DNA from: Coffea arabica
Taxonomy: Eukaryota; Streptophyta; Magnoliopsida; Gentianales; Rubiaceae
Length of the DNA stretch: 64,000 nucleotides
Reading direction: 5' to 3'
Assembly: GCF_036785885.1 (NCBI RefSeq)
Contig: NC_092317.1
Span: 9,488,501-9,552,500 of the forward strand
Both the position numbers and the translations under genes were made by a program. Of this stretch, positions 1-27,480 are shown one piece after another (positions within the stretch are counted from its first letter, which is position 1; every line of letters begins with the position of its first letter). The notes beneath the pieces were generated by a model. That model was not told the DNA's origin and searched no databases. It was given only the letters and a program-made list of their open reading frames with translations.

Positions 1-735
1 AAACGGAGTTTAAACCTGCAATAGGTTAGTTTCTTGCTTTGCATTCTATGCTAACGGGTAAACGGAAGTCAAGTATAATATCGATCCGATTTATCGAACA
101 AATAAATTAGGCCATACATAGCTGGTGTTTTATTGCAAACCGTGTTGAATTAAAGTTTATCCGATAAGTAAAATTGTAAGTATGGGATATTGGTACTCTG
201 TTGTCATAGCGGAGGAAATTGTTTAAAGAGCTTATTGGAAAAGGGGTTTAATTTACATTTAGCCGATAAATGAATTTTTTTTTTACGGAAAATGGTAACC
301 TAGTACGGAGAAAGCCATAAAGAGCTGCTCTTTTACAAAGAGCTGATCTTTATTCAACAACGGCTTTAACTATATTTCATCCGGTAAATACATTTGTGTT
401 TAAGGCACCTGGATACTACTCTGTCAGTGTAACAGGGTCGCAAGCCATAAAGAGCTGATCGACAGTTTTCAACAACGGGTTTAACAGCAATTTCGTCCGA
501 TAAATACATTTGTATTTGATGCACGTCGGGGACTGTGTCAGTTTAACGGAAGAAAGCCTTAAAGAGCTATTCTTTAATCAACAACGGGTCTATTTTTTTG
601 CTTTTCGATAAATGAATTTGTAGCTGAGGAACTTGGGTAATTAGGTGACTGTATGAAGGAAGAAAGGCATAAAGAGGTTGACTTTTATAACACAACGCCT
701 TTAATAAATTCGGAAATTTCCTAAATTTCCCACTA
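1..735 (+). repeat. Array A of the CATAAAGAGCTG repeat
   Basis: Degenerate tandem units of about 100-120 bp, each with a core like CCATAAAGAGCTG followed by CCGATAAAT and a spacer. Cores are visible near 228, 315, 443, 554 and 668, all on the + strand. Several units carry the variant spacer AAGGCACCTGG/GATGCACGTCGG that is otherwise seen only in the array at 26,990-27,200, so the two outermost arrays resemble each other most. The array is cut by the start of the window. No coding potential seen. Confidence 0.75.
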
Positions 736-1007
736 TATCCTAAAATAAATTTCTAAATGCACTGCAAAGCTTTCTCGGTGGCGCTGTCACTGTGTCATGT
801 ACTTTCTCAAATTCGAGCAAGTCGAGGAATCACAAAACTGGGCTTTGTTCCGTTCGTCACCCATAATTCACCAATAACTAAAATTTTAACGTTCTTCACC
901 TATAATTCACCCGTAATTCTCTTGTTCCGTTCTGTCACCCATAACTAATATTTTATATAATTAAAATTATATAATTTATTAATATTATATACACATATAC
1001 ATTATAC
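736..1007. other. Non-coding spacer with short CACCCATAATTCAC repeats
   Basis: No gene seen. The segment 857-945 contains three or four short near-repeats of CACCCATAATTCAC, then turns into AT-rich DNA leading to the motif ATTAATATTATATACACATA. That motif also precedes the repeat ends at 7,122 and 20,873. Confidence 0.4.
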
Positions 1008-1365
1008 GGGATAATTTCACAAACCTCCCCTGAATTAGCGTATGGAAAAATGGGAAACTGGATAATTTATGAACGAAAGCCATAAAGAGCTGGTGTTTTA
1101 TCAGACAACTGATTTATTTTTATTCGATAAATAAATTCTTTTATGGAAAAGGGTACTCTGTTCTTATAATGGACAAAAGCCATAAAGAGCTGGGTTTTTA
1201 TTGGAAAACGAGTTTTAATATATTTTATCCGATAAATAAATCTATTAATGGAAAAAGGGGTGCTTTGTTCTTATAATGGAGGAAGGTCATAAAGAGCTGG
1301 TCTTTTATGGGAAAGTGATACATTACGAAAGTGACCGGGATTGTTGTGTTATGAAATTATCCCAA
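1008..1365 (+). repeat. Short TIR-like repeat copy containing array B
   Basis: Begins GGGATAATTTCACAAACC and ends in TGAAATTATCCC, so the outer bases form an inverted repeat. Inside are three CATAAAGAGCTGG units (1,081, 1,181, 1,289). The left end is nearly identical to those at 7,122 and 20,873. I could not identify a convincing target-site duplication (left flank TAC, right flank AAA). Confidence 0.55.
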
Positions 1366-2361
1366 AATATTTAGAATTAGTTTATTTATTTATTTAAATA
1401 ATTATAATATTTATTTATATAATACATTATGTAATTGTACTAATATTTTTTATAATTATAGAGAATATTATATATTAAGTAGTATAATTTTTAGTATATT
1501 TATAATAACAAATATAAGTATAATTATATAATATATTATTACCACATACACATATATATTATAAATATATGCACATATAATATACATTTATAAGTATATA
1601 TGTGGAATGTCAATGAGCTGAAGGTTAACATTTTGAGTAAAATTGGGCAAATAGGTCAAGATGCAAGAAAAAAATAGCAACTTATTATTTGGAAACGCAA
1701 CTTATTATTATTCACCTTGTAGGAATGCATATGCAATCGTTTTAGAAATTTGTCTTGCTCAAATATTCTATTTATTGGAACAAGAAAACTAATCTTTGGA
1801 CTTTGATTTAAAAATTGAAAGGGCAAATATGTAAAGTTGCATTCTCATAAAATTCTGTCTTTCCACATCTCTCCAACTCATACAGACTTCGTGTTGGTTA
1901 ACAGATTCCATTGCTGGACTTTATTTTGGTACAGACGCAAAGCAAGGAGCCTAGCTCAATTAATGTGAACCATTGCTCCCTGACCAACTGTTAGTATTGC
2001 ACGTATCCGAGAGGTTAAGCAGACGGACAGATTTAGTGTGTGACATTTAGATCCTTAATGTTTAGACGAGAAGTTGCCAACAAACAATTACAATACTAAC
2101 AGGCTAAAGTTACTACATGCCAACGTTTGTAGCAGGAGTATATGGCTGACGCATCCTGCATTTGACAGCAATTACAGCCATTATCTGATAATTTTTGCTC
2201 ATCCAAATGCAATAACCTGCAGACAATAGGGTGATTTCCAACTGCCGGCAGTGTTAGAATTTGCATAAAAAAAACTCAGCTTGTATCCTTTGCAAACAAA
2301 AACAGAAGTAGGGGAAGAAAGTAGTACCAACATATATGAATTAGACAGGCCCAGTGTCTCA
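1366..2361. other. Non-coding, very AT-rich then mixed sequence
   Basis: Positions 1,366-1,600 are almost pure A/T with ATATATA-like runs. Positions 1,620-2,361 are of ordinary composition but show no convincing reading frame on either strand. The right part probably holds the 3' flank of the minus-strand gene ending at 2,362. Confidence 0.4.
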
Positions 2362-3929
2362 CTAAAGCACAACAGTTTTGCTTGTGTGTCCCATCAGAAG
2401 AGAGGTTCTCTCCTTCCAATGGTTTGGAGAAGCCTCCGTACAGTGAACGGTCCATAAACTGATCTTCCTCATGCTTTCAAATTTTCCTTTTTTTCTTGCT
2501 CTGTGCATATGATCAGACGCAATTTTAGCTATCATAACGAGGTGTTGAACTATTGTGAACATATTCCTGAACATGAATGCAATGGATACCTCCGGAGAAT
2601 ATCTGTTTGGGGCTTCCCGTTTGCGCGTCACTTGCTTTGTTGTGTTATGCAGTCCAAGCTTGCTGACAACATTAACATAAAAGTGCCAATCCACACTGCC
2701 TTCTGTTACAGGTGATTGTCCAAAACGGTTTCGCTTAATGAAATCTCGTACATTATCAGCACTGGCCAATTTCTTCAGGTGTCGTACAAAATCTCCTTCA
2801 GGATCTGCAAATATGTTTTGTGTCAGGCTAGCTGAACAGGCTGTGCTTACCGTAGCAAAAGCCACATTTCAAAGCATCGCGAACCGCGTTTTACCCAAAT
2901 AATTGTCTTCTACAGTGTAAGATGTATAAGAGGTGGGGAAGATTGCATTGTACGGCTGAAGAATGAGTAATATGGAAACAGTTAGCCCTTATACACATAT
3001 TTGTGCATACCGGAACATATACATCATAACGATCAGTGGGTATGGTGCACTTACAGAATTAAGGAATGATTTATACGGAGAATCATCGACTAATATCGTG
3101 TTAGAGCTGTTGTACGACTTGTATTCTCCCCACACATGTTTTAGGTCCTTAAACATGACCGTTTTGCTTGGATTTTCCCTAAGGCTGGTTTGTGTCATAG
3201 TGCACCGCGACTGATCCTGCACAATATTGATTGTTCCCGACTTTCCTTTATCAGAAGTCTTGCACACGGACTGACTACACACAATCGAAGTAATTTGTGA
3301 ATTACATCTCACCCAAACAAATAACAGTCTCTGCTCCAAACGTTCATTCATTTTTTTGGATAGACTGTCCAACACTGGTTGAATATTGTGGCTGCAGAAA
3401 ACACAAATGTCTTCAATTCGAATGATAACACAAAAACTTGTATTGAAGTTCCAGTTAATGAAGTAATTCAAATATAGGTTCGCGGATACCTTAGCTTCGA
3501 TGACCAAACAGCCACCTCAAAATATGACAGACACACCTTCAAAAATTCAAAGCAATGTGGCCTGAAGTTGAACTCCCGATTTCTGGTCGAATGGCGAAAT
3601 GCACTGCCCAGAACCACTCCATTCAAATCAACAATAAGAAGCTTCTTCTTTGAATCATTGGCGGACGCAAGTTCTGGCGGGCTTTTTGTTACCCTTGTAC
3701 CTTCGACTGGGGAAAAAATGAAGGCATACAATTTTTCAGCACATGGATTTTGCATGTGAGATCCAATTTGAATGTCATAATGCGAAATCAAACAAGAGGA
3801 ATTGGAAAGTGTAAAGCAAAGATCTGGGGTCGAGAATTTATTACAATGTCGTGAGCAGAAGTCAATTAATAATGGAATAGCGGGAGTAGAAAAGCAATTT
3901 GTGAATGCGATGGTCACGGGGAGATGCAT
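2362..3929 (-). CDS. FCP1/NIF (NLI-interacting factor) phosphatase-like domain gene, four exons
   Basis: Minus-strand exons fit as 3490-3929 (or from an acceptor at 3706), 3055-3391, 2895-2955 and 2362-2804, with GT/AG at each junction and matching phases; about 426 codons if translation starts at 3929. The order of motifs is that of the NIF/FCP1-homology HAD fold: KKKLLIVDLNGVV (motif I, about 3,650), RPHCFEFL, EVAVWSSKL, LLFVWVRC, VMFKDLKHVW, NTILVDDSPYK and NAIFPTSY, then the tail LASADNVRDFI..FGQ. Members act on phosphoserine, for example of the RNA polymerase II CTD. Here the second motif-I aspartate is Asn (DLNG), as in a plant subgroup of unclear activity. The last part, downstream of DWHFY, is low-similarity and may not all be coding. 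The gene starts only 35 bp after the protease gene and may be its 3' half (see findings). Confidence 0.75.
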
Positions 3930-3964
3930 CGGAACAGAGGTACGTACACTTTTTATGGTTTCCT

Positions 3965-6830
3965 TTATACAAGATTAATTTCGTACCAATAATTTGCAAA
4001 TGCCCTAAAGAATTTAAAATTTAATATTGCCTTCATATGCAACGAACCAATTACAGTAAAGGCGAGACATAATGTACCGTTCCCTGTTTCCTGATGCCCC
4101 ACATCGTTGGTAGCATCATTTTGCAAATCTCCTCTGGTTACAGCCTCATGTGCCTGTTTATTTTCTATCAGGAACGCAGCATAAGCGAACGGGTCCGCAA
4201 GTTTCCCCAAAGCGATCTCCCAGGCAATAAATTTTCTAGCAATGACAGCATCAAGCTGTACATACATTCAGAAATGATGTCAGACGCAATAAAGTGAGCT
4301 TGCCACAAGGGGTTGTATACTTGTGCACTTACAAATTGTGGCCGACACCCCTTTGCCCAACATTGCGCAAACTTCAAGGTGAAAACCCCGCAACTCGCCG
4401 CGTCTGTCTGTTTTAGTTTGTGTTTTACAAGAATAAATGTCCAGGGTTGATTTTGGTGGAAAATTTCCATCAAAATCCATTCCTAAGAAGGAAATAAATA
4501 CAGCAGGTATCGAATGTTAGAAATATGTTACCTTCTTCGGAAATGAAGCTAAGGTACGATTTCGATGTTTACTCACCACAGATTGCATCAAACCTTGGTA
4601 GAAGCTTTTGTAATTGTCCATAGAATCAACAATGTACACTTCTTTGTCCTTGACATGTGCAATCATGAGCAACCAATGATTTGAATAAATGATTGGGAAA
4701 AAAATCTGCAATCGCATACAACGAGCAATGTCGAATGTGTTAAAAGCTAAGGCATATTAGGCTGAATCCAATTCCACTAACATGCAGCTGCTACTCATAT
4801 TGTATAAGAATGTTAAGGCGAGAATGATAGGTAATGTTTACCTTTTCAGGATTTGTCATGGAGTCGTCATTGCTTTGATCAACGAATGGCTTTTTGGTTG
4901 CGGGAGATATGCATGGATAGTCTAACACACATTTCAGCTACAACGAAGTGATTGAGAAGCAAGTATTAGTTCCACATTTTGCAAGGCACAACAGCACATA
5001 CAATAATTTAACATTACGTACCCAAAACATAGGATTGAAGAAAACAAATTGCTTATATTGTTTCTGGAGTAAGTGAAGGTACTGGGTCACAACCTTCACA
5101 GAATGGAACAAATTCAAACATTGAATAAGAGTGGAAATACAAAGCCAGATCAGTGAACAAGGTAGGCCTGTGCAATCGCATAAAAACTTACTTTGTCACT
5201 GAGACATGTCTCCTGAAGCATCACTTGCTCCAGTTCTTCTCTAGTAATATCAAAGAGATGCTGCCTATCTAGTGTACTGGCACAGCTGTGAACAATGATT
5301 GACATGATTACAATAAAGAGATGAAAGCGAGACCATTGTTAGCCATTGACAGTACCGATAGTTTAACATACATCTGCGGGACGAGTTGTCTGACATGAAA
5401 GCATACGGCTTCTTTCAATTCATCAGGTGGTACGCCGGAAGTTTGTGGTAGACACTGGACAATAAATTAAGGTATTAGCATATATAAAGGGGATTACAGG
5501 AAAGCGCAGGAGCATGTCTTACATCTCGTAGAAATGGCAATGTCTCAAATCCGCAGTCCTTCACTTTGATGGCACCAACCCCTTGTAAAATTTGTTTCAC
5601 TTTATCCACAACCTAGTCATACAAATATTGGGTTATCCTCCTGGGTTGCCATCGAGAAGAAGAAACAAGGAGTAAAATAACAATGTCACATACAGTTGCC
5701 CCTTTTCTGGTCTGTTCATATAGTATGACAACTTCTTCAAGGTGTGCTTTTTCCCCCACAACCGGCCGCACCTCGACCCCAGCACACTTCCCCTGCTTAT
5801 CCATCTCTTTTATTTCTACAAGTTTTCTATTCGCGTCCCCATTCTGACCAATGACAGCATCAGAGGTATAGGATTTCTTCCACATCCAACCACCATCTTC
5901 ACCTTTGACTGCCAGTCTTTTGATGTACGATACTCCCATTTTGTGGCCGTAAAATCCTTTGTCAACATGGTCAGCCAAGAATGGCACATCAAAGCGCCTA
6001 AACAGCCTGGTCAGCAACATACCAAAAGGGAGATGTGTTCTCTTATTCTCCCTGCTCTTAATCTTCCTAATCCTGTTGAGCATAGTTGCAATGATCAAAT
6101 TGCCTATGTTTACAGGTTGTTTGTGTAACATATGCCACAGTATAACTCTTTCTAATGCACTAACGGAAGTGATACTTCCGGCTTTAGGTACAATGCTATG
6201 CGTTATTATCAGATGTAACAGCCGTGGGACCACTTTCATATACGGCGCATAAAACTTATTCTTTTTGCCCAAGTTCATAACTCTGTAACCATTTAGCCGA
6301 ATCTCTCCAAGAAATTCTAGGTCATTGTACCCCTTCACAGCAACCTTATCTACATTCTTTGCGCTAATCCGTCTATAGTCAACAGTGTATCCACTGTCAA
6401 CCAACCCAAACTCTGAACACAAAACCTCAGCAGACAATTCCATGTGTACATTCCTAACCACTGAACGCAGAACAGACTTCTGCTTATTTGCCCTACAGTT
6501 AGCATAGAATTCCCTAACCATTGCATCATAGCACTTGTCATTATTTCCCAGCAAATTTAACAAATTTTGGGCATTAAGATATTCCGTGATATCGATACAC
6601 TCACCAGCGAGAGCTTGTACGTCGACCCACATGCCTGCATACACTGGAAGACTCATACAGGCCTCCATTTTACTGCCTATGCTTGCTTCGGGCTGCGGTT
6701 CAATTGTTGAGTACGTTGAGCAACAGAGGAACCGAACGCGAAAAATCCGATTTATTTGGACCTTGCCGCCTGAACTGCTCCAAATTTCAGAAGGGGGGGA
6801 GGGGGGAAAGTTTAAACCGAAGCTTTTCAA
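3965..6830 (-). CDS. Ulp1-type (C48) cysteine protease with N-terminal plant transposon domain, nine exons
   Basis: Exons on the minus strand: 5694-6668 (ATG at 6668; the frame is open to 6830), 5523-5612, 5372-5454, 5192-5285, 5022-5093, 4842-4937, 4577-4705, 4333-4482 and 3965-4255. Every junction is GT/AG and every phase agrees, giving about 659 residues. The first exon resembles the 'putative plant transposon protein' domain (motifs MVREFYANC, NIGNLIIATML, LPFGMLLTRLF). The C-terminal half is a Ulp1/SUMO-protease fold: His480 in SNHWLLMI, Asp497 in VYIVDS, Gln538 and Cys544 in KQTDAASCGVF, with the expected Gln six residues before Cys. Such proteases remove SUMO-like modifiers. ULP genes carried by Mutator-like elements are known in plants, so this is probably transposon-borne. 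Exon 9 has an internal donor at 4077 that could join it to the downstream NIF exons. Confidence 0.8.
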
Positions 6831-6868
6831 GTGTGTTTACACAACAACGGAGCTTTTAATGGGCTAAA

Positions 6869-7121
6869 CAGGAGAAAGTATGAGAAGTTCAGCAAAGACG
6901 AGCTTTTTGTGGGATAATTGATCAGGCGGGGACGGGCGTGGAGGGGAGGCAAACCCGATTTGGTCAAATCAAGATAAACCCGATTCGGTATTCCAGCGTC
7001 TATTCCGAAGCGGGTTATGCGGAAGGCAAATTACAAGGGGTTATATTACAATCTATTCATAATAACAAATGTAATTATGTATTTATATAATTTATTAATA
7101 TTATATACACATATATTATAA
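6869..7121. other. Intergenic spacer upstream of the protease gene
   Basis: No gene seen. It is GC-richer near 6,920-7,020 and then AT-rich. Ends in the shared flank ATTAATATTATATACACATA next to the repeat end at 7,122. The protease promoter should lie here or just inside the start of its first exon. Confidence 0.35.
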
Positions 7122-7990
7122 GGGATACTTTCACAAACCTCCCCTGAATTAGCTTATGGAAAAATCAGAAACATTATCTTTATGGACGATAGCCAAAAAG
7201 AGCTCGTGTTTTATTCAGGAACTTGTTTATTTTCATTTAATCCCATAAATAAATTTGTTTACGTAAATCGACTTTATTGTAAAGGAAAGCCATATAAAGG
7301 TCCGTCTTTTATTGTAAATCGAGTTTATTTTTTACATTTTTTCCGATAAATAAATTTAGTTATGTCCGAGAGTGTACTCTGTTGTTATAATGGAGGAAAG
7401 CCATAAAGAGTTCAGAAACATCAACGTAAATCGATTAAATTTTTATTTCATCGGAGTGAACAATTTATTTATGGAAAAATGGGTACTCCGTTGTTATAAT
7501 GGAGGAAAGGCATAAAGAGCTGGTCAATTAATGTAAATCGATTTTATTTTATTTTTACCCGATACAAAATTTTATTTATCTAAAAATGGGTACTCTGTTC
7601 TTATAATGGAGGAAAGCCATAAAGAGCTGGTCAATTATTGTAAATCGTTTTTTTTTTTTTACCCGATGTTTGGATTTTATTTATGGAAAAATGGGTACTC
7701 TGTTCTTATAATGGAGGAAAGAAATAAAGAGCTGGTCAATTGACGTAAATCGCTTAGAATTTTTTTTTAAACCCAACAAAAAATTTTTTTTACGAAAAAC
7801 TGGGTACTCTGTTCTTATAATGAAGTATAATGAAGTAGAGCCATAAAGAGCTGGTCAATTAACGTAAATGGATTTTTTTTTTTTACCCGATAAAAAACTT
7901 TATTTATGGCAAAATGGATACTCTGTTCTTATAATGGAGGAAAGCCATAAAGAGCTGGTCAATTGACGTAAAGTGATACTTTACAGAACA
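7122..7990 (+). repeat. Array C: best-preserved CCATAAAGAGCTGGTCAATT units
   Basis: Opens with GGGATACTTTCACAAACC, a close copy of the ends at 1,008 and 20,873. About seven units of roughly 105-110 bp follow, each with GGTACTCTGTTCTTATAATGG, AGGAAAGCCATAAAGAGC, TGGTCAATT and a T-rich ACCCGATAAAAA segment. The units are close enough to each other to suggest recent local amplification. No inverted partner of the left end was found at the right side. Confidence 0.8.
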
Positions 7991-8144
7991 GAACATATTG
8001 AAGATAAGCTATTTAGCTTTTCATACCAGTAATATTAACAGAGTAAGAAGTAGCGGTCAATTTACTGAAAAAACATAATTAATTTGTACACCATGGTGAC
8101 AAATTTGTGCATCAAAAGGAGTTGTCAACATTCAATCTTATACA

Positions 8145-9209
8145 CTAACGATAAGGTAGGGCAGCACAAATTGCTCCAATTTCTTCATCGCAAGCGCAGG
8201 CTTCACATGTACTCTCCTCCTCCACGTCATCGGCATCCATAGGCCATGAAGATGTTTTCCTCTCGTGTGTCATGGCACAACAAATGGGCGTTGGCTTTAG
8301 AAACAAAGGGTTCTTGACCCATATCATCCTCAGCAGCGCTCGCAAATTGTGACGAGGATGAAATTGTTTGGCATAAAGAATTCTGGATTTCTTCAACCCG
8401 CTCAGCAGTCGCATACCTTTGCGCTTTAACTCGTCCCCACCAAGAAAGATGTAAATTATTCCCAACGCATATGCCGCATCCGCATGGCCTGAAATGGCAG
8501 CTTCTTCCAGGCATTCCAATGCTGAGTCCTCATGCTTGTCCGTAAAATAATCAACCTAAACAGTGCAAGGTTGATATTACACTCTTCCGTAAAAGTCATC
8601 GGGGAAATAGTAACGAAAAAATCAAAAAAAGTGCTTCGTGAACATCCAAGGCGGCGGGACAATAATTATTTACTGGGGCAGAAAGCTGCAGTAACCTGTT
8701 GTATATATACGTTTTGGGGTAAAGTGTGCAGACCAAAATCATCATCAAGTTCAAATGATATAGATGACCTCAGCTTAGTCTAGAAAATTTCGAGCAAACG
8801 GGACTTCGGCCCAATGCTTACCACTCCTTTTCGATACAAGGCTTCTGGATTTTTGCTTTCTCTACACTTCTTCAAGAACCTCGACACTTGGTCGTTTTTT
8901 GACCACGGCACGATTTCAAACTTATCCATTGACACCCGGTGGTAAATGTTGTCTGCTTCCGAAACTTCGTAAAACAACTTACAGCTGCAAAATAAGAGAA
9001 ATGATCCATTAAACGCAAACGATTGTAACATGTCATATATTTTAAACGCCTCTTCCTGTTTCTATCACCAATACCAGAACGAACCATAGTTTTGCCCGGA
9101 AAAGATCAGTGGATGAACAAGATGCGACACGTGCAAGCACCTCGGATAGCACCTCGGTCGGAAGGGACAGGATGCAGGTTGTTGAACGCCCTTTTTGTTC
9201 GTTGGCCAT
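8145..9209 (-). CDS. F-box protein, At1g67623/At2g35280-like, three exons
   Basis: Exons 9085-9209, 8822-8984 and 8145-8555 join in phase (125+163+411 nt, 232 residues). Exon 1 carries the F-box, with SLPTEVLSEVLARVA followed by SSTDLFRAKL. Exon 2 continues with CKLFYEVSEAD, KFEIVPWS and NPEALYRKGV, the usual body of this small plant F-box family. Exon 3 has a Sel1-like stretch (GHADAAYALGIIYIF) and a cysteine-rich C-terminus (CEACACDEEIG). F-box proteins recruit substrates to SCF ubiquitin ligases. Its target is unknown. The frame is open and the splice sites canonical, so it is not an obvious pseudogene although it sits between transposon repeat arrays. Confidence 0.72.
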
Positions 9210-9815
9210 GTCCGGTTAATTTCTTTTACTGGCCACAGTCGAGTGAATCCGTCGAACGCCCAAGAATGGAGTAAACTTCAAACAACACCTACTTCCTAAT
9301 CAAATCCAATAATGATTGATAAGGTGTAATATATAGCCCTGTTTGTGGGAGACCGAGTAACCGTAGCGATAAACGAACAGAAATTTGGAAAGGCACAACT
9401 TCTCCTGCAAACGACGCAACATTCTGTCGTCAAAAAACAGTCATCCGAAACAATTTTACAAACCGACCAACGTATTATTCCAATACGGTTATTTCATACG
9501 CACCGTAACAAAACACCGGTAGCAAGGGACCATGAACAGTCACGATGTACACCTACATCGTAAATTGGTCGACGTTCATCGCAGAGCAAAGGAGCTTCCA
9601 CAGTGATAAACAGGGAGCCTTAGTTCGTAGCTGTAATGGGTCGGCAACCAGAGCTGGTATGGGAAATGGTCGCTATCACAGATTTGGCAGAGAGGTCCGG
9701 CGGGTGAAATGGCAACCGAAAGGGCAAAAGGTGATGTTGAATGCATATACTCCCGCAAGCCTGACTCCTCGTATGCTGCCACGGATGTATTTGTGGAGTC
9801 TGTCACCCATTAATT
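9210..9815. other. Intergenic region without a supported gene
   Basis: Several short frames overlap here on both strands but none shows a recognisable motif. The string TATAGCCCTGTT near 9,332 recurs near 20,302. Likely the upstream region of the F-box gene. Confidence 0.35.
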
Positions 9816-10525
9816 GAGAAGAGGCATAAAGAGCCGGTGTTTATTCGCCAAGTGGGTTAAAAGTAATAAAGAGCTGGTGTTTATCCTTTGTAAGCCTTTT
9901 CTCTATTATAATATGATTATGTATTTTTTTTGTTATAAACTAAAATTCATGAAATACTATAATTCAATTCAATTATGAGAGAAAATGAGTACAGGATTGT
10001 ACCTATAATGGATTGTAACTTCTATACATACTATAGCAATATTTCATGAATTAATCCTCTTGGGAATACGTAGGGACCTCTACTCACAAATTGTTGTTTC
10101 ATAACATTTTTTATTTTATGTAACTTTCACATATTTGATTTATGTTACACAGAAAACAGACGTCGGGTTTCCTTTTGCCCGCTATTAAACCCATTTTCCC
10201 TATAAAGAGCTGGTATGTTGCCAGCAAAAAAGCGGAGACAAATCGTACTACAAAACATGCCAGTTTCCCATTCAGCGCTGGTATAGTATGCGTTGTATGT
10301 TCAATGTTTCCTAATAAAAACCATACTAGTTCTGTCTTGGCCAGTATTTGCTGCTATAAAGAGGTAGTATGTTGCCCATAAAAAGTTGGTACAAAACATA
10401 CTAGTTTTCCTTTGGCCGCTATGTAACCAAAATTTGGATATAAAGACCTGGTATGTTTCCCATAAAAAGCCGGTATTTTACACATAAAAAACCAATAAAG
10501 AGCCATAAAGAGCTGGTATGTTAAA
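9816..10525 (+). repeat. Arrays D/E: divergent CATAAAGAGCTGGT units
   Basis: Two units at 9,823-9,870, then a differently spaced set between 10,140 and 10,520 in which TATAAAGAGCTGGTATGTT alternates with CATAAAAAGCCGGTA. Still + strand, but the spacer differs from arrays C and F, so this is an older or separate sub-family. No coding potential. Confidence 0.6.
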
Positions 10526-11863: not shown

Positions 11864-12147
11864 ATGAATGTGTTCCCGTTGATTGCATCCCCTCGATGCC
11901 CCCCCCGTTGCAGTACTGTTTGTATGGTCCCAATAAGGATAGAATGGGCATTTAGGCTCGTTTACAGCCTCTTGTATTTTTGTGGTTGCTACTGCTGTGG
12001 CATTGCCTTTTGTCCATCCGTTGTCAACCGGTGGTTGCCGCATATGCGACTGAGTTGGCCAAACCGGCGGAGTGATACTGTGTAATTTAAGATTTTCCCT
12101 TATATAACATACTAGGTTTCCGTATTTGGTTTTTGTTTACATTGTGC

Positions 12148-13300: not shown

Positions 13301-13308
13301 GAGTCAGT

Positions 13309-14110: not shown

Positions 14111-14149
14111 GTGTAAATCTGGTGCGGACAAGACTGGCGCCAGTCTTTC

Positions 14150-17310: not shown

Positions 17311-18001
17311 TCAACATAGTACTGTCATTGGAGTTGTGGCAACCCGTATTCGTTTATCGTCCGGACCATCCATGCCAAGTTGCTTTTCAATTTGAGCTGT
17401 TAATGTCCCGAAATTGCGGTTTGTGTTTTTAAATTCAAAATTTTGCATCTTTTCTAATCCCATTCCCCCCTTGCTATAATGAAACGTTCGGAGACATTTC
17501 ATTGCTTAGGACGCGGAGGTTGGCCACAATACTGTTTCCGTAGTCGTCCAAGTAAAACTGAAAAGGGTATGTATGTAAAGGCCAATGAAAACACGACATT
17601 TTACACGCGCCGACCGTCACTGTAACACAAATTTCCCAATTTGCAACCCTACTTAGAAGGTACAAGGGCATTGCACGCCCAACCTGGCCACAGCCGTCCA
17701 AAATGTCTTGCACTTCAAATTTCTGAGCGAAGAAAGATGCCTACGCACATACAAGGCCGCAACACTTAACGGCAAAGCTGTTCATAATCGCGGGTGGGGC
17801 GACAGGGATTTTGTGATAGCCTGCGCCGTCACAATATTCGTCCAAAATCCAACTCCAACAGCCGTGCGATGGGCAGGCTCCATCGCTACCGGCCTCCGCG
17901 TGATGAAGAACACTCGCAACAACTGCTGGTTGATCGGAAAAGCCACATATCACACATTTTCCTTGCACAGGGGGTAAATGTTGCAGAATCAATGTCGACA
18001 A
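17311..18001 (-). CDS. Unrecognised minus-strand gene, several exons likely
   Basis: Three consecutive frames (17741-18001 with CVICG and a Cys/His-rich body; 17474-17713; 17311-17502) are separated by plausible splice signals: CGCTCAG| before KFEVQDILDGCGQ, and CCCTTTTCAG| before FYLDDYGNSIVANLRVLSNEM. Base composition is higher in G+C than the flanks, like the other cassettes. It is head-to-head with the plant mobile domain gene, whose ATG is 127 bp away, so both may share a promoter. No family recognised. Confidence 0.35.
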
Positions 18002-18127
18002 TTACTTGTGCTTATTTTGCCCTAAGTCCTCATTTGGTTTATACATATATAAAAATGGCTGAATTGGTTCTACATTAATGCACAGGAAGTCTATTCAATT
18101 TATCCTAGAGGGTCGTCAGTCGAAATT

Positions 18128-20116
18128 ATGGAGTGGTGGAAGAGGCTGCCTCGTAAGGTGGCCGCGAAAGTTGTTAGTGCTGGGTTTGGGGATTTTCTGA
18201 GCCACTTGCCCGTGGCCGATAGAGATAGGAAGTTGCCTGTCGCACTTGCGGAGCGATGGTGGGACTCAACAAACTCCTTCCATTTGCCTTTCGGAGAGAT
18301 GACACTGACACCCTTGGACTTCACCTGTATAACCGGTGTTGCAGTGGGCGGCTTGCCCATTACGTGGGATTACAATGTTAGGGAAAATGCCAATTACATC
18401 AAGGAGCAATTGGGTTGGGTGCCAGCTTTTGCTTCTGCCGGTGCCATCAGAGTTACCGATATATTGTCATTCTACAAAGACAAGGCGATTGACGAGAACG
18501 ACGACGTCCAGCTGGCACATCTGACTAGAGCTTTCTTTCTATACATGCTTGGCCGCACTTTACTTAGCAACACGGCCGAAACAATTCACCTGTGCTGTCT
18601 GCCAGCGCTGGAGGACGTAGATCGTATAGGGGATTATAACTGGGGAGGGGCGGGGATGGCAACCTTGTACAGATTTATGTCCGCCGTCTCCCGACGCCTG
18701 ACGAAAAGCCTAGGCGGCTACAGCTTCGTTTGGGAGGTAAGTCCAGATTTGCCTTCACTTTGTGTCAATTCGACATTTCCATGTTCCGTTACATAAACTT
18801 TTCTAGCAGTTAGTGTTCATCTCGAACGGTGGACATAATTTGTACGACCACGTGTAGGTGTGGGCTTACGAAATTCTTCAGTTAAGTCCGTATAAACTGA
18901 AACGGGACGAGAGGGACGTATTGCCCAGAATGTGGCGATGGCGCTCGTGTAATAGAGCCAATCGACTAGCACCGTCTACGGTCGAAAATTTTCGCCGCGC
19001 AATTGACACCATTGACCCGGAAAACGTTAGTTCCCCTACTTAGAACATCCAATAGCTTCTACCGCCTAAGTGTTAACAGTTGTTATGAATTTGTTCCGCC
19101 TGTGGAACAAACCAATGTTACATCGCTTGTTAATTGTGTGTCATAGGTGAACTGGCTGCCCTTCCCTGCAATGGCATTGCCCAGTCGGTATCTCAAATCC
19201 AAGGAACTAACTGCAACGAGATTGCTTTTGGATGGCCCCATGGGAAGATTTTACTACCTGGGCGAGAGGGTTATTAGGCAGGTGTATGCAGGTGTATGTG
19301 CAAAGCAACCTCCCCATCGGCCATCAGATATGTACAGCACTGATACAATTTCGGGAAACATGCTACATGATGTGCTTCGTGGACTGCCCATTGCAAGCCT
19401 ATACCCAGATCCCCCTCCATATGCTACGTATGAGGAGTTTGTGTGCAGCAGGCTAATGAGACCAATGACTTCCTCCACGTTGGCACCCAGTGGGAAGGAG
19501 TGCGTAATTCATATATGTGACCAGTTGCCACTAAGTGAGGCCACAACACCGTCACTGAAACATCCAATTAATTACCCTCCCTGGTCTGTGTTGTGCATAC
19601 AAACTGATGGATCACTGGAGCAAGAGGGCATTCACAGAGTTGGTGGCGATGTAATAGGGTTGCCTCTTCCATGTGCTGTTGGTGATGTGGTATGGCATTC
19701 TTCGCCCTGTACTTAACCCGCCATTTAATTTGCGCAATTTGTGTACAATTAATACAGCCATCTGTGTTGTTTCCGCTTAGGTGCCTAGACACTGGTACGA
19801 GGACCTGCTTGTTCAGTGCATGGGCCTGAGAAAGAAAGTCTTAGAAAAAAGTGCAGAAATATTTCGTTTGGCATCCAATGTGTCGGACAACACACAAGTG
19901 GTGGACCAAAGGCTACATCAAATACAGGTAATTTTGGAAAGTGCATTGAAGCTCCAAAAGGGGACAGGGAAACGCTGCCTTCGCGGTGAACTTGGTGGCC
20001 GGAAATCCTGTGTTTGTAAGCGTCCCAACACAAGTGCCGGGACGCAGACATTTACGGATGAGCTTGGTAGAGCCAAAGCTCACGAAAGTCAGGGAATTCA
20101 TAATGCCAAAGACTGA
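18128..20116 (+). CDS. Plant mobile domain (PMD, MAIN-like) protein, four exons
   Basis: Exons 18128-18736, 18858-19025, 19147-19689 and 19781-20116, all phase 0, give about 551 residues. Residues 1-200 are a PMD: WWKRLPRKVAAK, LAERWWDSTNSFHLPFGEMT, LTPLDFTCITGVAVGG and FLYMLGRTLL match the family's conserved blocks. Exons 2 and 3 continue it (VWAYEILQLSPY, MWRWRS, VNWLPFP). Exon 4 (HWYEDLLVQCMGLRKKV) ends in a short coiled coil and a basic tail. MAIN/MAIL1 are nuclear proteins needed for meristem maintenance and transposon silencing. The mobile copies in plant genomes ride on Mutator-like and gypsy elements. A second GTAATT donor in exon 4 (after 19,926) could give a shorter isoform. Confidence 0.75.
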
Positions 20117-20872
20117 GCACCCATGGCCCCAAACCGCAAACAAGGTTGTGTAGCCGGAGGAATGAGTATGCAAACTTCTTGGTACTGCCCACCAACAAAG
20201 CTAAGCTGTGAGCAATCGCCACGTGTGTTGCGTAATTCTGATACAATTTTAAACTTGAACACGGAAAATGTTAACAGTTGACAGATAATTCCCACAACTA
20301 ATTTATAGCCCTGTTCTTATATTTCGTCTGTCCCAGATTGTTCTTCACCTACAATTCAAGTTTGCAGTGAAATTAAATATTTACAACAAAACAATTTAAA
20401 TGGAAGTTGTTGTTATTATAAATCTATCACATTTAATGCATTACAATTTTCGAACTTATTTATATGAAATGACGGAAAAGCCTTTTGTATGAATGCAACT
20501 CCAACACAAGAATATGAGTTCAAGTTTGTGCAAACTAGTTACTTGAAATATTGTACTCCATTCGAAATGTACAAATGGTGTAAAAAAAATTAATCGTTTT
20601 CAGCTCTGTTTCGTTACTTTGTGCACAAGACACATTTCCCTTTTTCTTTCACTTCAACAACTTCCTCTGCAAATTTCCGAGACTAAGCTCCTACTGCAGC
20701 AACATCCCTATCTATAATTACATAATATATATAATTACTAATTAACTAATATTTTACACAGTTATAACGTATATAAGATTAAATTAAATCATTTTGCAAC
20801 CTTATATGCATAATAATAAACATATTTATTATTATATGAATTATTAATCTTACATACACATATATATTGTAA
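20117..20872. other. Non-coding, AT-rich downstream of the PMD gene
   Basis: No gene seen. Contains TATAGCCCTGTT (20,302), shared with 9,332, and ends in the AT-rich flank (ACATACACATATATATTG) that precedes each GGG(A/C)TAATTTCA repeat end. Confidence 0.35.
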
Positions 20873-21907
20873 GGGCTAATTTCAGAAACATCCCCTGAAT
20901 TAGCTTGTGGAAAAATGGGAAAACGGATGATTTATGGAGAAAAGGCATAAAGAGCTGGTGTTTTAGTGCAGACCTGGAGTACTTTTTTTACCCGATACAT
21001 AAGCAGGGTCAAAAATTCACTGCGCTAGTTAACCAATTTTTCATATATAAACAAATTTACTAAAATTAAAATAGCGTGTTTCAAAGTTGCGCTTCTATTT
21101 CAAAGTCAACTACTCTTAAACAGCTTTTACTAAAATTAAAATAGCGTGTTTCAAAGTTGCGCTTCTATTTCGAAGTCAACTACTCTTAAACAGCTACTGC
21201 TTAATTCATATAATGGAACAAACCCGTAAAGAACTGGTATATTATAGCAAACAATTTTTGTTGTTTACTTTAAAATATTTCATTTACATTAAATAATTCA
21301 AAAAATGCTAGTTTTCCTTTCGTAAAGATGTTTCTGTAACGGCTTTTGAATTTTATTTGCAAATTTTTATGAAAATTAAATGATTTATAATAAAAGGTTC
21401 ATACAAAACGTGGTACTTCATTCATGTAATACAGAGAAGGCATAAAGAGTTGGTACTTTATGGGATATTTCCTTTTTAAACTATTCTGAACATATATTAC
21501 GTAGATAACCTACCATTTTTTTTTACATAACAAATTACTGTACCATTTTTTGAATGGCATTTCAAAAACATTTCTAACTGAAACAGCACCCACAATAATG
21601 GCACAAAAAAGGTGCCTTACTCCCTAATCCAGCTTTACTTCATGTATTACTCTCACAGTTTGTGTTATTGTTGTTAGGCTTCATTAATCACTGTACATTC
21701 CTTTTTCTCCGACTAAACGGTAATAATAAACCCCAACATCAGTAATAAATCCCAAGTTCATACCATATATTTGTAATTTTGGCCTTCATGATGTCAGCTA
21801 AGGGACCCAATAACTCAAAGGCAAGGGAGGTCAGTCAAATTTTGACAACTTCAGGGGGTGCCAGTGAAAGTGTCACAAATCTCAGGGGAGGTTTCTTAAA
21901 TTATCCC
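20873..21907. mobile_element. 1.0 kb TIR element with TAA target duplication
   Basis: Left end GGGCTAATTTCAGAAACATC and the reverse complement of the right end GGGATAATTTAAGAAACCTC match at 23 of 26 positions, and both sides are flanked by TAA (20,870-20,872 and 21,908-21,910). A 3-bp TAA duplication fits PIF/Harbinger-type insertion. No transposase frame is present, so the copy is non-autonomous. It contains three CATAAAGAGCTGGT-like motifs (20,948, 21,225, 21,440). Caution: the other left ends at 1,008 and 7,122 share flanking sequence too, which weakens the target-duplication reading. Confidence 0.55.
21057..21196. repeat. 70-bp tandem duplication
   Basis: TTTACTAAAATTAAAATAGC ... TACTCTTAAACAGC occurs twice back to back with essentially one base difference (TTTCAAAG/TTTCGAAG). 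The near identity means a recent duplication inside the TIR element. Confidence 0.8.
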
Positions 21908-21910
21908 TAA

Positions 21911-23160
21911 TAAATATATTACAAACCACATTGTAATTGATAGTTATTGGCTAATTAAATATGTTGGTACAAATGTATTACTAAAGTTACTCGAACTAAT
22001 TAATAATTTCTATTAGTAAATATGTATAATTAGTAGTATAATTCATAATATTAATTATATTACATAAATTAATGTACATATATAATACATATAACTAATA
22101 ATACCATTGTTATTGGTGCACTGAAGAGACGCATAAGCATTGTGAGCAATGAAAATAGATGGGGAGAAACAGAAGTTACTGTTCCTACACATGAATGGAA
22201 CGATGGGCAAAAGAAAAGGCGTTGGGCCTTATGGTCATTGGTTAGGATAGCAAGCCGAGGAACAAACAGCCCAATCGTAAAAGCAGTTTATAGCAGCAGC
22301 GTACGGCACCAGTTTACAAAAGCTGGGCAACTGAAGCTGATTCCCAGGTAGCCACTTCGGAAAACGTCTATCCCACGAAGAGATTTTGCGCAACATACGA
22401 TTCCACTTAATTTCGTATTTACAAAAAAAGGAACAAGTTTGGCTCGTCTAATAAACAATTTGTCAACTACTTACTCTCCTATTAACCAAGTGCAGTAGCG
22501 GTATTTGCTACAGCAGTGCTTACGACGCAACCTTGACAGTCATGCATCTTGTGATCCTTCTGTGCATGACCCCTTCGGTGGAACTACAATGACTTACCCA
22601 TCTACACCTAGCAACCTTGAATAATCTTCACCCCACCGATACATAACAAAACACAATCCCTAAAGCCGGTGTTGCTCTATAACCTGTCTGTCGTCACGGC
22701 TGCTACTTCCATGCACAACCATACCATCTCTTTCAACCTCTGCATTTCACACCTAGAAGAATATATAATAGGATTTACACACGCAACGGCAGTGAAATAA
22801 GAACAACAAAGCCATTTACCAACAGGTACTGCATCAGTACAATGACTGTTTACAACCTTTCAGTGGCTGTGGTGATAACAGCTTACAATGGCCCATGACA
22901 CATTCAAACTTACATTATTTACACTTCAATGGTAACGGAATCAAATTTTTTTAAACAATATACCCAGCTTTCCCCGCATTCACGAATACCTTGTAGCCTT
23001 CTCATGCTCAAGACAAATTAATGCGAAGGAAAGATACAAACCCTTCCCCTTCTACAATTTCGTACTTGTTTCATGGAAAGACTACTCTTGCACCTCGACT
23101 CACCAAAACCTGCCTTATTTATTGCGTAACTGCAAACCGAAGCATCACAACAGTAGTGCC
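21911..23160. other. Non-coding 3' flank of the FAR1-type gene
   Basis: No supported gene. The first 200 bp are AT-rich; the rest is ordinary composition with only short frames. Probably includes the 3' UTR of the minus-strand transposase. Confidence 0.35.
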
Positions 23161-25921
23161 TCATCTTTCTCCTGGACTTCTTTGTTGGCCACCTGTGTCC
23201 CTTCCACCGCTACCGAATGGTTGTGGTACAAATGCTTGTCCTCTCCATTCGCCTGAGTCGCTGCAGCCCGTACCAATTTCAAATGATTTTTCCAGCGAGT
23301 CATCCAAACAGTTTTCCATATAATCATCATCAACTGCTGTGTTGTGCGAATTCTTTTTGTATGGGCATGTTCGTTGGTTGTGGCCTGCCTGCAATCTTCA
23401 ACCCATATATCACATGTCAAATCATTTGTGACTGCAAGTAATCACGTTAACCGAGCACAGTGCTAACATTACACCACTTCAACTTTCTTGCATTGCCAAT
23501 AACTTTGTATACTTTGTATGCACTTTTAATTATGTGTTTATTTACTACTGTTGTTAATAAGAACGAAAAATACCCACTTCTTCATTATTACCTTCGCTGT
23601 CCACTTCATGTATTTTATCAATTAACTACTGTATAACTACGTATGCAATTCCGATAGTACCTGCAATGACCACACTTTCTTTTCTTCTTTGCTTCTGCAT
23701 GCTTGTGATCACCTTTACACCGGGACACCCTAGGATCTAACAGCCCGAATGTTCTTCTACTTCTATCGTTCCTCACTCTTGAATCCATTGCAAATCCATC
23801 TCCCCCATATCCCCTATCAATCCACTTCTCCTTTAGGTCCACAGAATGCTTGTCAAACATCTGTTGCAGGTCATTAAACGCATCATCCATGTAGGAGGCA
23901 TAGTAACACATAGTATTACAGCTGGACTTTAAAGTGCCATATCTGGCCATTTGTGTCAGCTGTTCGTCTGCAACAAATTCTTTCATTCCATTATTACTAC
24001 AGTGAACTCCCTTTGTCCACCGCTTCGAAATGCATGCTTCTGGGATCCTGTTCATTCCTTCTACCACCATCACGCGAAACATGTGAGCACAAGGAATCCC
24101 CTTTGACTCGAATTTCATGCAAGAGCAGATTAGCTTCTCCATTGACCTATCATAATCCACCCTCCAACTTATTTCGTGTCCACCATATTTCGAGTAATAA
24201 TATGTACGATTCCCTCCATCCTCGCTCCAGCCCTCAGAAATTAGAAGTCCTTGCCTGTTCAAATGCTTCCTCACCATGAAGAACACATTCCTTGTAAACA
24301 CCTCCGCTGCGCTCCCCTCTAATTCGGGCAGGATTGTGGTTAAGACTGGTTTTGTGTTTTCGCTTGTGTGAACTGCTTTGCTCTCGGTATGTCGAAGCCA
24401 TGCTATTGCCAAATCAAAACTTCTAACGAATTCATATAGTCGCATTTTTTCATTCAAGTACTCGTTCAAAAAAGCATTCATTTTCTCACACCTTTGAGTA
24501 CTTCTCATACCTGCAAAAAAATGACCGCGTAAATAGGCCTCTGCCCATAACCTTCTCCTACGGTACAATTTCTTCACCCACTCATTCTCTACCACCCCAC
24601 ATTCATTAACCAACCTAGCCCACCGATCCTCAAACTCAAGAGTGCTACACTTTCTCGCCATCAGGTTATAGAACCTGTTATTAAACTCCTCGCAGCGAAT
24701 ATTACTCCGTGCATTTCTATGCAAGTGCCACGAACATAGCCTGTGACAAGCATCCGGGAGAAGATTCTTTATAGCTCTTCTCATTGCACTGTCCCCATCT
24801 GTCATCACTGCTACTGGCTTTCTACCTTTCATAGCCTCTACAAATGTACTTAGCACCCATTCATATGTTTCAATCCTCTCATCTGATAGCAGTGCACAGC
24901 CAAAAACAGTACTGTTCAAATGGTTGTTTACCCCTGCAAGTACAACTAGTGGCTTGCGGTATTTATTTGTTTTGTATGTTGTATCAAACACCAATACATC
25001 TCCAAATACACTGAAGTCCGCACGAGATTTAGAATCTGCCCAAAACAACATTGCCAATCTTCCTTCGTTATCTACATGATATTTATAAAAGAACATGTCA
25101 TCGGCATCCTTCTTCGCTGCCAAGAACCCAAGTGCCCCTTCTGCATCGCCATTAAAAATATCTTTTCTACGTTCCTCGTCCATTCGGTTATACAAATCCT
25201 TAATGCAAAATCCCACGTTACTATACCCTCCGGCTTTGATAACAAAATGTTTCATTATCTGGCATATTCTGGCCCCAACCAACTTTAGACTTTTTGCCTG
25301 CGCATATTCTGCATCGCTCACTTTTCTATGCGACCTAATGTGTTGCACACTTGCCTCTGATGCCAGCGGGTGATTGTGCTCCATAATGAAACGTGTCACC
25401 ACATACTTTACCGATTCTATGTCATATTTCACGCGAAAGCAAGCCCCACACCCGGTTCTTGTGATTGGTTTTGCTTCTCTTTTCCGGTCTTCATAATTAA
25501 ACCACTTTTCATTCCTGTAACCTTCACAGCAACATACCCATTTTCTAAATCTTGAAATGCCATCTGCATCTCGTTTGGCATTACTTTTACGAATCCCAAA
25601 TCCGCTTAGTTTCGCATACAAATTATAGAATTCCCCAGCTTCTTCTTCCGTGTCAAATGTTAATTTCATTACGTCATCCACGCCTATTGCGCCCACCAAT
25701 TCATCTGCCTCCTCATCTTCGTGTCCTCCTATTGAACCACCGCTTTCTTCAATGAATGTGTCTCGGTCACACTCAGGTTCTTGGTTAAGGTCAAATGACC
25801 TTAACCTGCCGCAAACATCCAACGCCATTTGATTAATTCTCTGTTTCCTGCACCATGTCATGAGTTGAGTTTTAAGCGCCCCATCCTGCCCCATAGTTAC
25901 AACCCCTGTGTGGTTGTTCAA
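23161..25921 (-). CDS. FAR1/FHY3-family MULE transposase
   Basis: An uninterrupted 767-codon frame (23618-25921). Residues about 95-188 are a FAR1 DNA-binding domain of the WRKY-GCM1 zinc type (CCCEGYR, CGACFRVK, EHNHPLA). The MULE DDE domain follows: Asp313 in VFDTTYKTNKYRKP, Asp375 in VMTDGDSAM with CHRLCSWHL, and Glu479 in TQRCEKMNAF. A SWIM zinc finger lies at 599-613 (CSC...CAH). The C-terminal KCGHCR runs into a GT donor, and a zinc-knuckle remainder (QAGHNQRTCP) lies in an exon near 23161-23404. All catalytic residues are present, so it could be active. Domesticated FAR1/FRS factors look alike, but the flanking repeat arrays favour a transposase. A GC-richer leader with a GTGAGT donor near 26,622 may be its 5' UTR. 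Confidence 0.8.
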
Positions 25922-26960
25922 TGTTTTTTCTAACCATGGTCGCTTAACATTTTCTTTTCAGCCTCCCCATATGCTTTCGTTTGTAACATAAATACTGCTC
26001 GTCTACTAATGGAACAAAACATATATACACGATCATTTCAGTTAACAAACCATACTTTACCTCACAACTTTCACAAAATGCACCCGATAAACATTACTCT
26101 CACATTCATATACACAGTTTTTATAAGTGTGGCTGATGCAATTATATCAACCTTTAGCATAAAATACCACTATCGACATGCATTTTCATTAACACCCACA
26201 AACTCAACCTCTACTGTGTGTTTCTTTAATTCTTTTCACATAAGCATTCGCAATGCAGTATGGGGGCCATTATCCATGTCCACACGGCCATCCAAATCAC
26301 TCTGTTTTAAGACTTTAGTCCTGTTACAACGTCTTCTTCACGTCTTCACTCATTTCTGCTTAATTTCCTTTACACAATTTAATACAAATTAGAGGACCAA
26401 CATTTCTTACGTACGTACACAAAGCTCGGTGCACAAACAAACTACGATAATATCCCGGTTTCGTTTCATCTTTGTTCGAAGACGCAGGGTCTTACACCCC
26501 GTATTTCGTATTCCTTATTCCTCTATCATTTCCTCTTACAACAACTGTAGAAATCACCCTACTAGACGTACTTTACTCGTTATTCTAATCCATTTTTCAA
26601 AGTTGTGGACAAAAGTACTCACCTTTGATTTCTCTGCTTCTGTTCCACGCCGCTGCAGTCTGTCACCACAGCTTCGGAAGGGCCTTCCTCAGATGTATCT
26701 ACCGTCACCGCCTGCGCCTGAATTTACGCCAGTAGACACCACCTCTTTACCAAATTTTTGCCTACCATTCCGACCTCGCCACCTGTCTTCAAACACACGC
26801 ATCACCGCGGGCCCCAACATGGCTCTGTGTTTAGTACCTAATACGCTTCCTCTTCGGTGGCCCCACCATGGCTTTGTTTAGTACCGCTTACGCTTCGTCT
26901 TCGGTGTTTCATACAACAGAACCGACACCGCAATTTTTATGCTTTCCGATAAATTATTTT
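25922..26960 (-). promoter_or_regulatory. Upstream region of the FAR1-type gene, possible leader exon
   Basis: No convincing protein on either strand; the + strand frames here are pyrimidine-rich shadows. On the minus strand a GC-rich stretch (about 26,880-26,625) ends in ATCAAAG|GTGAGTAC, a good donor, and could be a spliced 5' leader exon of the transposase. Confidence 0.3.
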
Positions 26961-27480
26961 TTTTTCAAGGAAATTGGGTTCTCCTAACTGTGTGATGGAC
27001 GAAAGCCGTAAAGAGCTGGTCGTTTATAAGACAACCGTTTTAACTACATTTTATCCCATAACCCAACATTTGTATTTAAGGCACGTTGGGTACTCTGTCA
27101 TTGTAATGGTTGAAAGGCACAAAGAGCTGGTCTTTTACTCACCAACGGGTTTAATTGCATTTCATCCGATAAATCAGTCTGTCTTTATGGCACCTTGGGT
27201 ATTATGTTGTTGTAATGGAAAAAAGCCAAGGGGAGATGAAACTTTTGAACTGAGACACACGTTTGAATATAATAATGGTCCTCAAAATGGATTTAATCTT
27301 TAGTTGTAGTCCAGGAAAGCCGTAAAGAGTTGGCTGTTTATTCAAAAATGCATTTAAATATGATATTCCGTTGTTAAAATGCATTTAAAATGCAATCGCT
27401 AACATTTGTATTCAACGAAAATGAGTTATTCCGTTGTTATTATGGACGAAAGAGTTGAAAATTGGGGTTGTTTTAATAAA
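26961..27480 (+). repeat. Array I of the GTAAAGAGCTGGT repeat
   Basis: Units near 27,003, 27,113, 27,320 and a weak one at 27,445, on the + strand. Spacers AAGGCACGTTGGGTACTCTG and AACGGGTTTAATTGCATTTC match array A far better than C or F. This is the last array; no further copies were seen to the right. Confidence 0.7.

Follow-up and report, generated by a model that had tools for sequence, protein, structure and literature searches.

In Arabidopsis, VANC proteins bind a short motif, which is tandemly repeated in the noncoding parts of VANDAL elements (PMC5735166). VANC localizes to introns, intergenic regions, and terminal noncoding parts, and it brings about a loss of methylation, which spreads along the element. 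The motifs vary between families, and VANC6 motifs are also found in AT9TSD1, which is unrelated to VANDAL (PMC5735166). VANC genes bearing Ulp1 are described as KIU (review PMC13317346). In grapevine, Mutator-like elements (MULEs) of up to 17.7 kb are tabulated, with Jitvine-1 and Jitvine-2 at 11.9 kb and 14.4 kb, respectively, and some Jittery-like families carry ULP sequences downstream of the transposase (PMC2528002). Pack-MULEs carry gene fragments, none of those reported in 2004 being longer than 7 kb, and enlarged CACTA elements of 16–20 kb are described from a red alga (giant-transposon review PMC6431247). Herein, we analyzed a 64,000-nucleotide stretch of Coffea arabica DNA (C8:9488501-9552500, hereafter the window) and found that it holds most of one giant mobile element, whose family members mostly measure 30–37 kb and number at least 31 listed copies with both ends and genes. 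With about 30 end-to-end copies at roughly twice the longest tabulated grapevine length, this family exceeds the 17.7-kb maximum given in that source (PMC2528002). We put the probability at about one half that the repeat arrays along this giant FAR1-transposase MULE serve in cis as sites at which an element-encoded, VANC/KIU-like protein would bind and counteract silencing. No earlier report of such an element was found at the level of titles and the beginnings of abstracts, which does not show its absence from print.

The right end of the window copy (copy A) lies at position 27731 and its left end at -4493, beyond the window start (Table 1; positions without a prefix are window coordinates). 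The left terminus reads GGATGTTGCTGC, continuing [A/G]GTATG, and the right terminus ends in CACTACAGAAATTACC. These ends are identical to the base in three copies across the 1.198-Gb genome that all genome-wide searches covered: the window copy (32,225 bp), copy B at C2:40531657-40564473 (32,817 bp), and copy C at C1:5080811-5114538 (33,728 bp). Base-by-base comparison showed copies B and C to be collinear with the window copy end to end, and perfect 10-bp target duplications flank both. No long terminal inverted repeat (TIR) was found between the 700-bp ends of the three copies, which places the element with the non-TIR MULEs. An inverted agreement of 13 of the 22 terminal bases, equaled by 0.4% of shuffles, may represent a short degenerate TIR. 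The preliminary description of this stretch had set the limits at 1 to 27480, with arrays A and I outermost; neither limit held, since the left end lies outside the window and 4.6 kb and another DUF/Ulp1 gene lie outside array A. Arrays as the limits of the element were ruled out, as the common ends of the three copies lie elsewhere.

The termini were searched genome-wide with a left query of 28 bases and a right query of 23 bases, allowing up to 3 mismatches. The left terminus matched 124 sites (reversed control, 0) and the right terminus 152 (control, 7). Pairing took 100 of the 124 left and 100 of the 152 right sites, so the 54 pairs obtained are a lower bound. These at least 54 paired units comprise 22 of 6.8–17.7 kb, inside which there was no listed FAR1 or Transposase_32 (Tp32) match, and 32 over 25 kb. 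Both the FAR1 transposase and the Tp32 gene are contained in 31 of the 32 listed units over 25 kb; among the pairs listed, 26 of these 31 giants measure 30.4–37.5 kb and five measure 48–77 kb. Exact target duplications of at least 9 bp (9–10 bp) flank 20 of the 31 giants, compared with 9 of 1806 mismatched flank pairs, and related-locus pairs probably account for six of these nine control matches. The 31 giants include three related pairs with equal flanks (C2:40531657/C2:40696587, C9:8615539/C9:9449418, and C1:9567174/C2:10558396); about 28 are independent, 17 of them with exact duplications. Among small elements, exact duplications of 9–11 bp were found in 13 of 19 (8 of 12, then 5 of 7 further), one small-element case being an AT repeat. 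These 19 come from the 22 paired ones; one more of the 22 was tested and had none, and its duplicate and the 17.7-kb pair were left out. Offsets of up to 4 bases were permitted in the rescan. A 9.2-kb element outside the paired list has a 10-bp duplication with one mismatch, and its 6.8-kb neighbor has none.

When the flanks of the C2 copy are joined and one duplication is kept, the resulting sequence matches five places at 1–3 mismatches (reversed control, 0), and these are sites without the element. One insertion has the same flanks on two chromosomes (C1:9567174 and C2:10558396) and may be older than the split of the parental genomes. The proteins encoded by the transposase, Tp32, NIF, TPR_27, and orphan exons are identical at three places, and the spread is therefore recent. 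The single giant mobile element of the preliminary description is borne out by the end-identical copies, the listed giants, and their target duplications. Of the checks proposed there, target duplications and empty sites were both found in the family; the window copy has no duplication. A cluster of nested small elements arising by chance has negligible probability, since at least 31 units share termini and genes, most with exact duplications, and three copies are collinear base by base, which refutes it for the family even if the window copy without a target duplication would suit it.

Several loci of the family deviate in structure. Six copies of 35.3–35.8 kb (C3:24850793, C10:5462425, C10:9690048, C7:7801165, C1:50303243, and C9:43608492) have near-equal transposase scores, both ends, and differing flanks, with no target duplication; it is possible that they arose by a different insertion or duplication route. 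Two left-left inverted units, C3:23642506-23679223 and C1:13480911-13524879, were considered as palindromic elements and ruled out because both arms share the same host flank, and they read as inverted duplications of the left half including that flank. The flank of the former equals the flank of the giant at C3:24850793. Four left ends at C9:8890258, 9002275, 9033605, and 9064947, the last three about 31.33 kb apart, have no paired right end nearby, which suggests tandem duplication of a truncated element.

All gene models are unspliced, their exons and frames are putative, and domains were assigned by Pfam. From left to right, the element carries the left gene (+), arrays A/B, Tp32-Ulp1-NIF (-), array C, TPR_27 (-), arrays D/E, GRF (+), an orphan (-), array F, PMD (+), array H, the FAR1/MULE transposase (-), and array I. 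The transposase is of the FAR1 type, which we take to be Jittery-like. It contains the motifs FDTT, TDGD, CSWH, and a SWIM-like CxC..CAH, as expected of a MULE-type transposase, and its protein is identical at three genome places. The Tp32 exon is the probable 5' part of a predicted Ulp1-NIF gene. NIF-type phosphatases have the motif DxDx[T/V]; because the NIF exon reads DLNGVV at this motif, phosphatase activity of this unit is doubtful. Compared with a KIU-type gene, in which a VANC-like N-terminal part and an Ulp1 catalytic domain are combined, the candidate domains stand in the right order and strand, as read from unspliced frames. Of the domains first proposed, NIF, Ulp1, GRF, PMD, and FAR1/MULE were recovered by Pfam, but the F-box was not: the two exons scanned of the gene at 8145..9277 gave no F-box match and are TPR_27.

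The cargo recurs across the genome. The FAR1 search scored the best 58 of 1591 first-look candidates, and its 63 rows gave 57 places after fragments were merged. The Tp32 search scored the best 102 of 1713 and gave 104 rows, of which 63 were used, those left out being mostly relatives of 44–65% identity and fragments. Tp32 lies on the same strand, on the expected side, and 17–31 kb away at 43 of the at least 57 transposase places, and 7 transposase places of 45–49% identity are among the 14 without a paired Tp32. PMD lies inside 31 of the 32 listed units over 25 kb. With copies B and C collinear, the cassette order thus recurs, a check that the preliminary description had proposed. Many copies remain open, with stop-free rows counted by eye, PMD flags set by hand, and related loci counted separately. 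The TPR_27 exon was stop-free in 47 of 51 rows (at least 80% identity, at least 125 amino acids, aa), the orphan in 34 of 46 (at least 88%, at least 216 aa), and the PMD exon at 33 of 46 places, two in shifted pieces. Among the matches listed, the left-gene exon was stop-free in 40 of 51 rows (at least 93%, at least 230 aa), Tp32 in 25 of 49 (at least 82%, at least 380 aa), and the transposase in 18 of 33 (at least 80%, at least 720 aa).

The linkage also extends to distant relatives. Of 27 distant Tp32 relatives (44–65% identity; one C13 place and a few fragments were left out), 19 have a NIF exon no more than 2.5 kb away to their 3' side, in the same orientation. In 14 of 21 cases, a TPR_27 relative of 51–67% identity has a Tp32 relative (44–70% identity) no more than 40 kb away. 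Among the matches listed, 6 of 7 FAR1 transposases with 45–49% identity have a left-gene relative at a distance of 7.6–9.5 kb, and 12 of 16 distant Tp32 genes (16 of the 27 were used) have one 7–47 kb away on the opposite strand. Because NIF, TPR_27, and the left gene stay linked in distant relatives, the cargo is old. The ancestral unit looks like a left gene plus transposase, with further cassettes having come to lie between them. Like Pack-MULEs (PMC6431247), the giant is a gene-carrying MULE. Unlike the captured gene fragments that source describes, its cargo is open in many copies and recurs in distant relatives, a recurring toolkit rather than captured scraps.

Other arrangements of these genes were also observed. 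An older subfamily (83–87% PMD identity; C10:8405724, C9:10376794, and C16:26653482) has PMD on the transposase strand, that is, an inverted cassette. At C14:19094246-19109551 and C13:17055311-17069490, the orphan gene is present as numerous degenerate copies in tandem, within about 15 kb at each place. At locus L136 (C16:40862201-40869200), frames that by eye resemble fragments of TOPLESS-type and PPR genes lie between relatives of the left gene and FAR1, and an Ulp1-like frame follows the left-gene relative at C16, also by eye.

The arrays are built on a recurrent unit. The 15-mer CCATAAAGAGCTGGT, searched on both strands of the window with up to 3 mismatches, gave 38 matches against 2.0 expected, and 0 of 100 shuffles reached 38. 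At up to 2 mismatches, 28 sites were found in the window between 112 and 27131, all on the + strand; within the element, up to 3 mismatches gave 34 sites on the + strand and one (3 mismatches) on the - strand. As first described, the core thus forms at least seven clusters within 27 kb, on one strand amid genes on both. Because each array consists of tandem copies of its unit, the bias to one strand amounts to about seven clusters rather than 34 independent sites. Tandem Repeats Finder gave periods of 107–116 bp in arrays A, B, C, and F, and a lone weak 15-mer site lies at 16878. None of the 34 + sites falls inside the 17 putative coding blocks, which span 9.7 of 27.7 kb, and by these positions the window copy has noncoding tandem arrays as in the VANDAL/VANC system. 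Beyond the window, the strand bias holds in copy B (38 +, 1 -), and is weaker in copy C (17 +, 4 -); in those smaller relatives that were read, strands are mixed. A sharing of spacer variants between arrays A and I and between C and F had been noted; it holds weakly, with mean identities of 0.77 and 0.78, respectively, against 0.68–0.75 for other pairs of different arrays. The notion of the 15-mer as a single conserved core was weakened. With TACTCTGTTCTTATAATGG, at another point of the unit, as the anchor, the 119 distinct units of the loci read share two conserved blocks within one stretch of about 40 bp; the anchor scored 1.48 bits/base (favored by its choice), the 15-mer 1.34, and the rest 1.03. 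The unit consensus contains CCATAAA and, some 60–70 bases on, TTTATGG.

The unit also occurs outside the giants. The exact 15-mer has 940 matches genome-wide, and we analyzed the distribution of 92 exact matches on C1 and C2 (100 of the 940 were listed). Of these 92, 21 lie in giants (20 on the element strand), 4 in small elements (2 per strand), 8 at most 40 kb from a listed FAR1/Tp32 gene, and 59 elsewhere, in 36 clusters with no listed FAR1/Tp32 match nearby. Two smaller relatives read in whole, one of 9.2 kb (longest frame 126 aa) and one of 6.8 kb (longest frame 132 aa), carry arrays on both strands, and arrays are also present in the part read of a 9.8-kb smaller relative. Three further array elements have other ends (Table 1); they are candidate MULEs on the strength of TIRs and 10-bp duplications, with no transposase seen. 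For L023, L021, L026, L016, L011, and L017, no boundaries with an exact duplication of at least 9 bp were found. Arrays exclusive to the giant were ruled out by the genome-wide 15-mers and by the clusters in elements with other ends. The preliminary description had held that arrays occurring genome-wide without these genes would defeat the single-element view. Such arrays exist, but the view stands because smaller relatives and other-ended elements carry arrays too. The TIRs of L014 begin near ACCTTTATGG.

Table 1. Coordinates of the giant MULE, its putative genes, its arrays, and array elements with other ends (window coordinates unless a locus is named)
Feature	Position	Strand	Remarks
Giant MULE, window part	1..27731	+	Whole element 32,225 bp, window -4493 to 27731, C8:9484007-9516231
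Left DUF/Ulp1 gene	Outside window, within 4.6 kb outside array A	+	Peptidase_C48 E 1.2e-7; DUF7745 and PMD below cut-offs
Array A	112..571	+	4 sites
Array B	1080..1301	+	3 sites
NIF-type phosphatase exons	2362-3974	-	Pfam NIF E 2.1e-5
Ulp1 protease exons	4168-4756	-	Peptidase_C48 E 2.2e-5 and 0.0027 (second below cut-off); H, D, Q, C residues by eye
Transposase_32 (PF20167) exon	5613..6836	-	407 aa; Pfam E 2.2e-22
Array C	7193..7959	+	6 sites; upstream of Tp32 exon
TPR_27 gene exons	8145..9277	-	Pfam E 5.9e-15 and 1.5e-11
Array D/E	9824..10517	+	9 sites; between TPR_27 and GRF genes
GRF zinc-finger gene	11287..11863	+	Pfam E 2.1e-8
Orphan protein	12641..13303	-	220 aa; no Pfam match
Array F	13595..14049	+	5 sites; upstream of orphan
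PMD (plant mobile domain) gene	18053..20113	+	Pfam PMD E 1.9e-27; extent beyond first exon by eye
Array H	20945..21454	+	3 sites
FAR1/MULE/SWIM transposase	23618..25957	-	779-aa open frame; Pfam MULE E 7.4e-26, FAR1 E 1.4e-17
Array I	27006..27334	+	3 sites; upstream of transposase, 0.4 kb from right terminus
Long-TIR array element	L014:3901-8222		TIRs 1.57 kb, 89% identical; duplication TCTTTGGAAG
Long-TIR array element	L020:2996-5201		TIR 0.69 kb, 93%; duplication TAATTCAAAA
Array element with other ends	L022:4107-4961		855 bp; duplication TAGTAAAAAA

The preliminary description had suggested that a transposase or a host factor might bind the core; in our view, an element-encoded VANC/KIU-like protein is the better fit. 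Under the anti-silencing explanation, the array units would be bound by an element-encoded VANC/KIU-like protein, and the bound protein would remove silencing marks locally. With sites spread along the element, a single protein could hold all 32 kb open, and relatives that have arrays and lack the genes would draw on the protein of the giant in trans. A weaker suggestion is that the products of Ulp1, NIF, TPR_27, and PMD may contribute to this by acting on host chromatin or on pathways of protein modification. Intergenic, seemingly family-specific arrays that are kept in smaller relatives and other-ended elements are the expected trace of trans-acting, sequence-specific anti-silencing. The VANDAL/VANC system (PMC5735166, PMC10398659) shares with the giant a MULE without long TIRs, noncoding tandem motif arrays, a candidate accessory protein, and a motif that also occurs in other elements, as VANC6 motifs do in AT9TSD1. 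The giant differs in its 30–37 kb, its many genes, its FAR1-type transposase, and a unit of about 107 bp with a conserved block of about 40 bp instead of the 9-base VANDAL motif; a resemblance to DUF1985 was seen in it below cut-off, on the first PMD exon. Kaonashi/KIU elements (PMC13317346, PMC2528002) likewise have an Ulp1 domain in a MULE gene; in KI-MULEs this gene and the transposase lie on different strands, as do the left gene and the transposase of the giant. The giant has two Ulp1-bearing units, one of them NIF-linked, plus TPR_27, GRF, the orphan, and PMD. The Jittery-like grapevine MULEs share ULP sequences in some families (PMC2528002). A broader and more tentative proposal is that the giant MULE lineage assembled an anti-silencing toolkit (two Ulp1 units, NIF, TPR_27, GRF, and PMD), and that its array unit became a landing pad shared with long-TIR elements of other ends and with gene-less relatives, all to be opened in trans by the protein of the giant; such a pad would serve different transposon families as a public good. 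Should the arrays prove to be anti-silencing sites, they would show how a very long transposon stays open and how other elements may share in this, in a crop for which the unit, the proteins proposed to bind it, and the copies targeted are available as exact sequences.

In the main rival explanation, the FAR1-type transposase would need to bind the arrays for excision, as with the subterminal repeats of other DNA transposons. The FAR1 DNA-binding domain found by Pfam in the transposase, the position of array I close to the right end, and the arrays in those smaller relatives with shared termini that were read all suit this explanation. We nevertheless consider it unlikely. The arrays run through the interior, array F having 18 kb of the element to its left and 14 kb to its right, and no array lies within 4.6 kb of the left end in copy A. 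Long-TIR elements with different ends also carry arrays, and a C16 relative lacks the motif in the 7 kb read. Two other explanations have lower and similar standing. Promoter or regulatory elements for a host transcription factor, shared among MULEs, would account for arrays C, D/E, F, and I lying upstream of putative gene starts, but arrays A/B and H adjoin putative 3' ends, and in the window copy the array strand is constant whatever the gene direction, which makes this reading improbable. Functionless satellite-like repeats, carried from one MULE to another by conversion or by nested insertion, would fit the variation in site number and strand between copies and the 940 exact sites. Passive repeats are an equally poor prospect, given that several element families and gene-less relatives carry arrays, that none fall in putative coding blocks of the window copy, and that the block of about 40 bp is conserved among the 119 distinct units.

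Several observations weigh against an anti-silencing MULE of this kind. No target duplication was found in the flanks examined at the window copy, and 11 of the 31 giants, including this copy, are without an exact duplication of at least 9 bp. In copy C, the transposase is rearranged, array H is absent, and the position of F has just two weak sites on the opposite strand. The left gene gave no Pfam match to DUF1985; the first PMD exon is weakly DUF1985-like (E 1.4e-5, below cut-off). A protein database query with the joined Tp32-Ulp1-NIF exons found nothing. What is conserved in the unit is the block of about 40 bp and not the 15-mer alone. In the C16 relative, whose transposase is 49% identical, the array motif is absent from the 7 kb between its two genes; this fits family-specific sites and is also consistent with no role. 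Copies A, B, C, and L015 differ by few changes, and the ratio of nonsynonymous to synonymous substitution rates (dN/dS) among them ranged from 0.14 to 2.90 by block. Several blocks stayed below 0.5, others lay above it or gave no defined value, and several contain frameshifts and stops; between so few copies these values are noisy and suggestive only.

The rest of the window contains other features. A long terminal repeat (LTR) retrotransposon at 33356-42792 has 454-bp LTRs that are 98.2% identical, gag and pol domains, and flanks sharing GTAAC, with a Transposase_28 frame on its other strand. At 46103-49697, a region of 3.6 kb in total is bounded by inverted repeats about 680 bp long with 96% identity, and no target duplication was found there. 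An 899-aa open frame at 52321-55020 encodes an NB-ARC/LRR disease-resistance protein. At 62542-63135, a 29-bp tandem repeat of 20.5 copies (91% matches) is overlapped by three open frames on the - strand.

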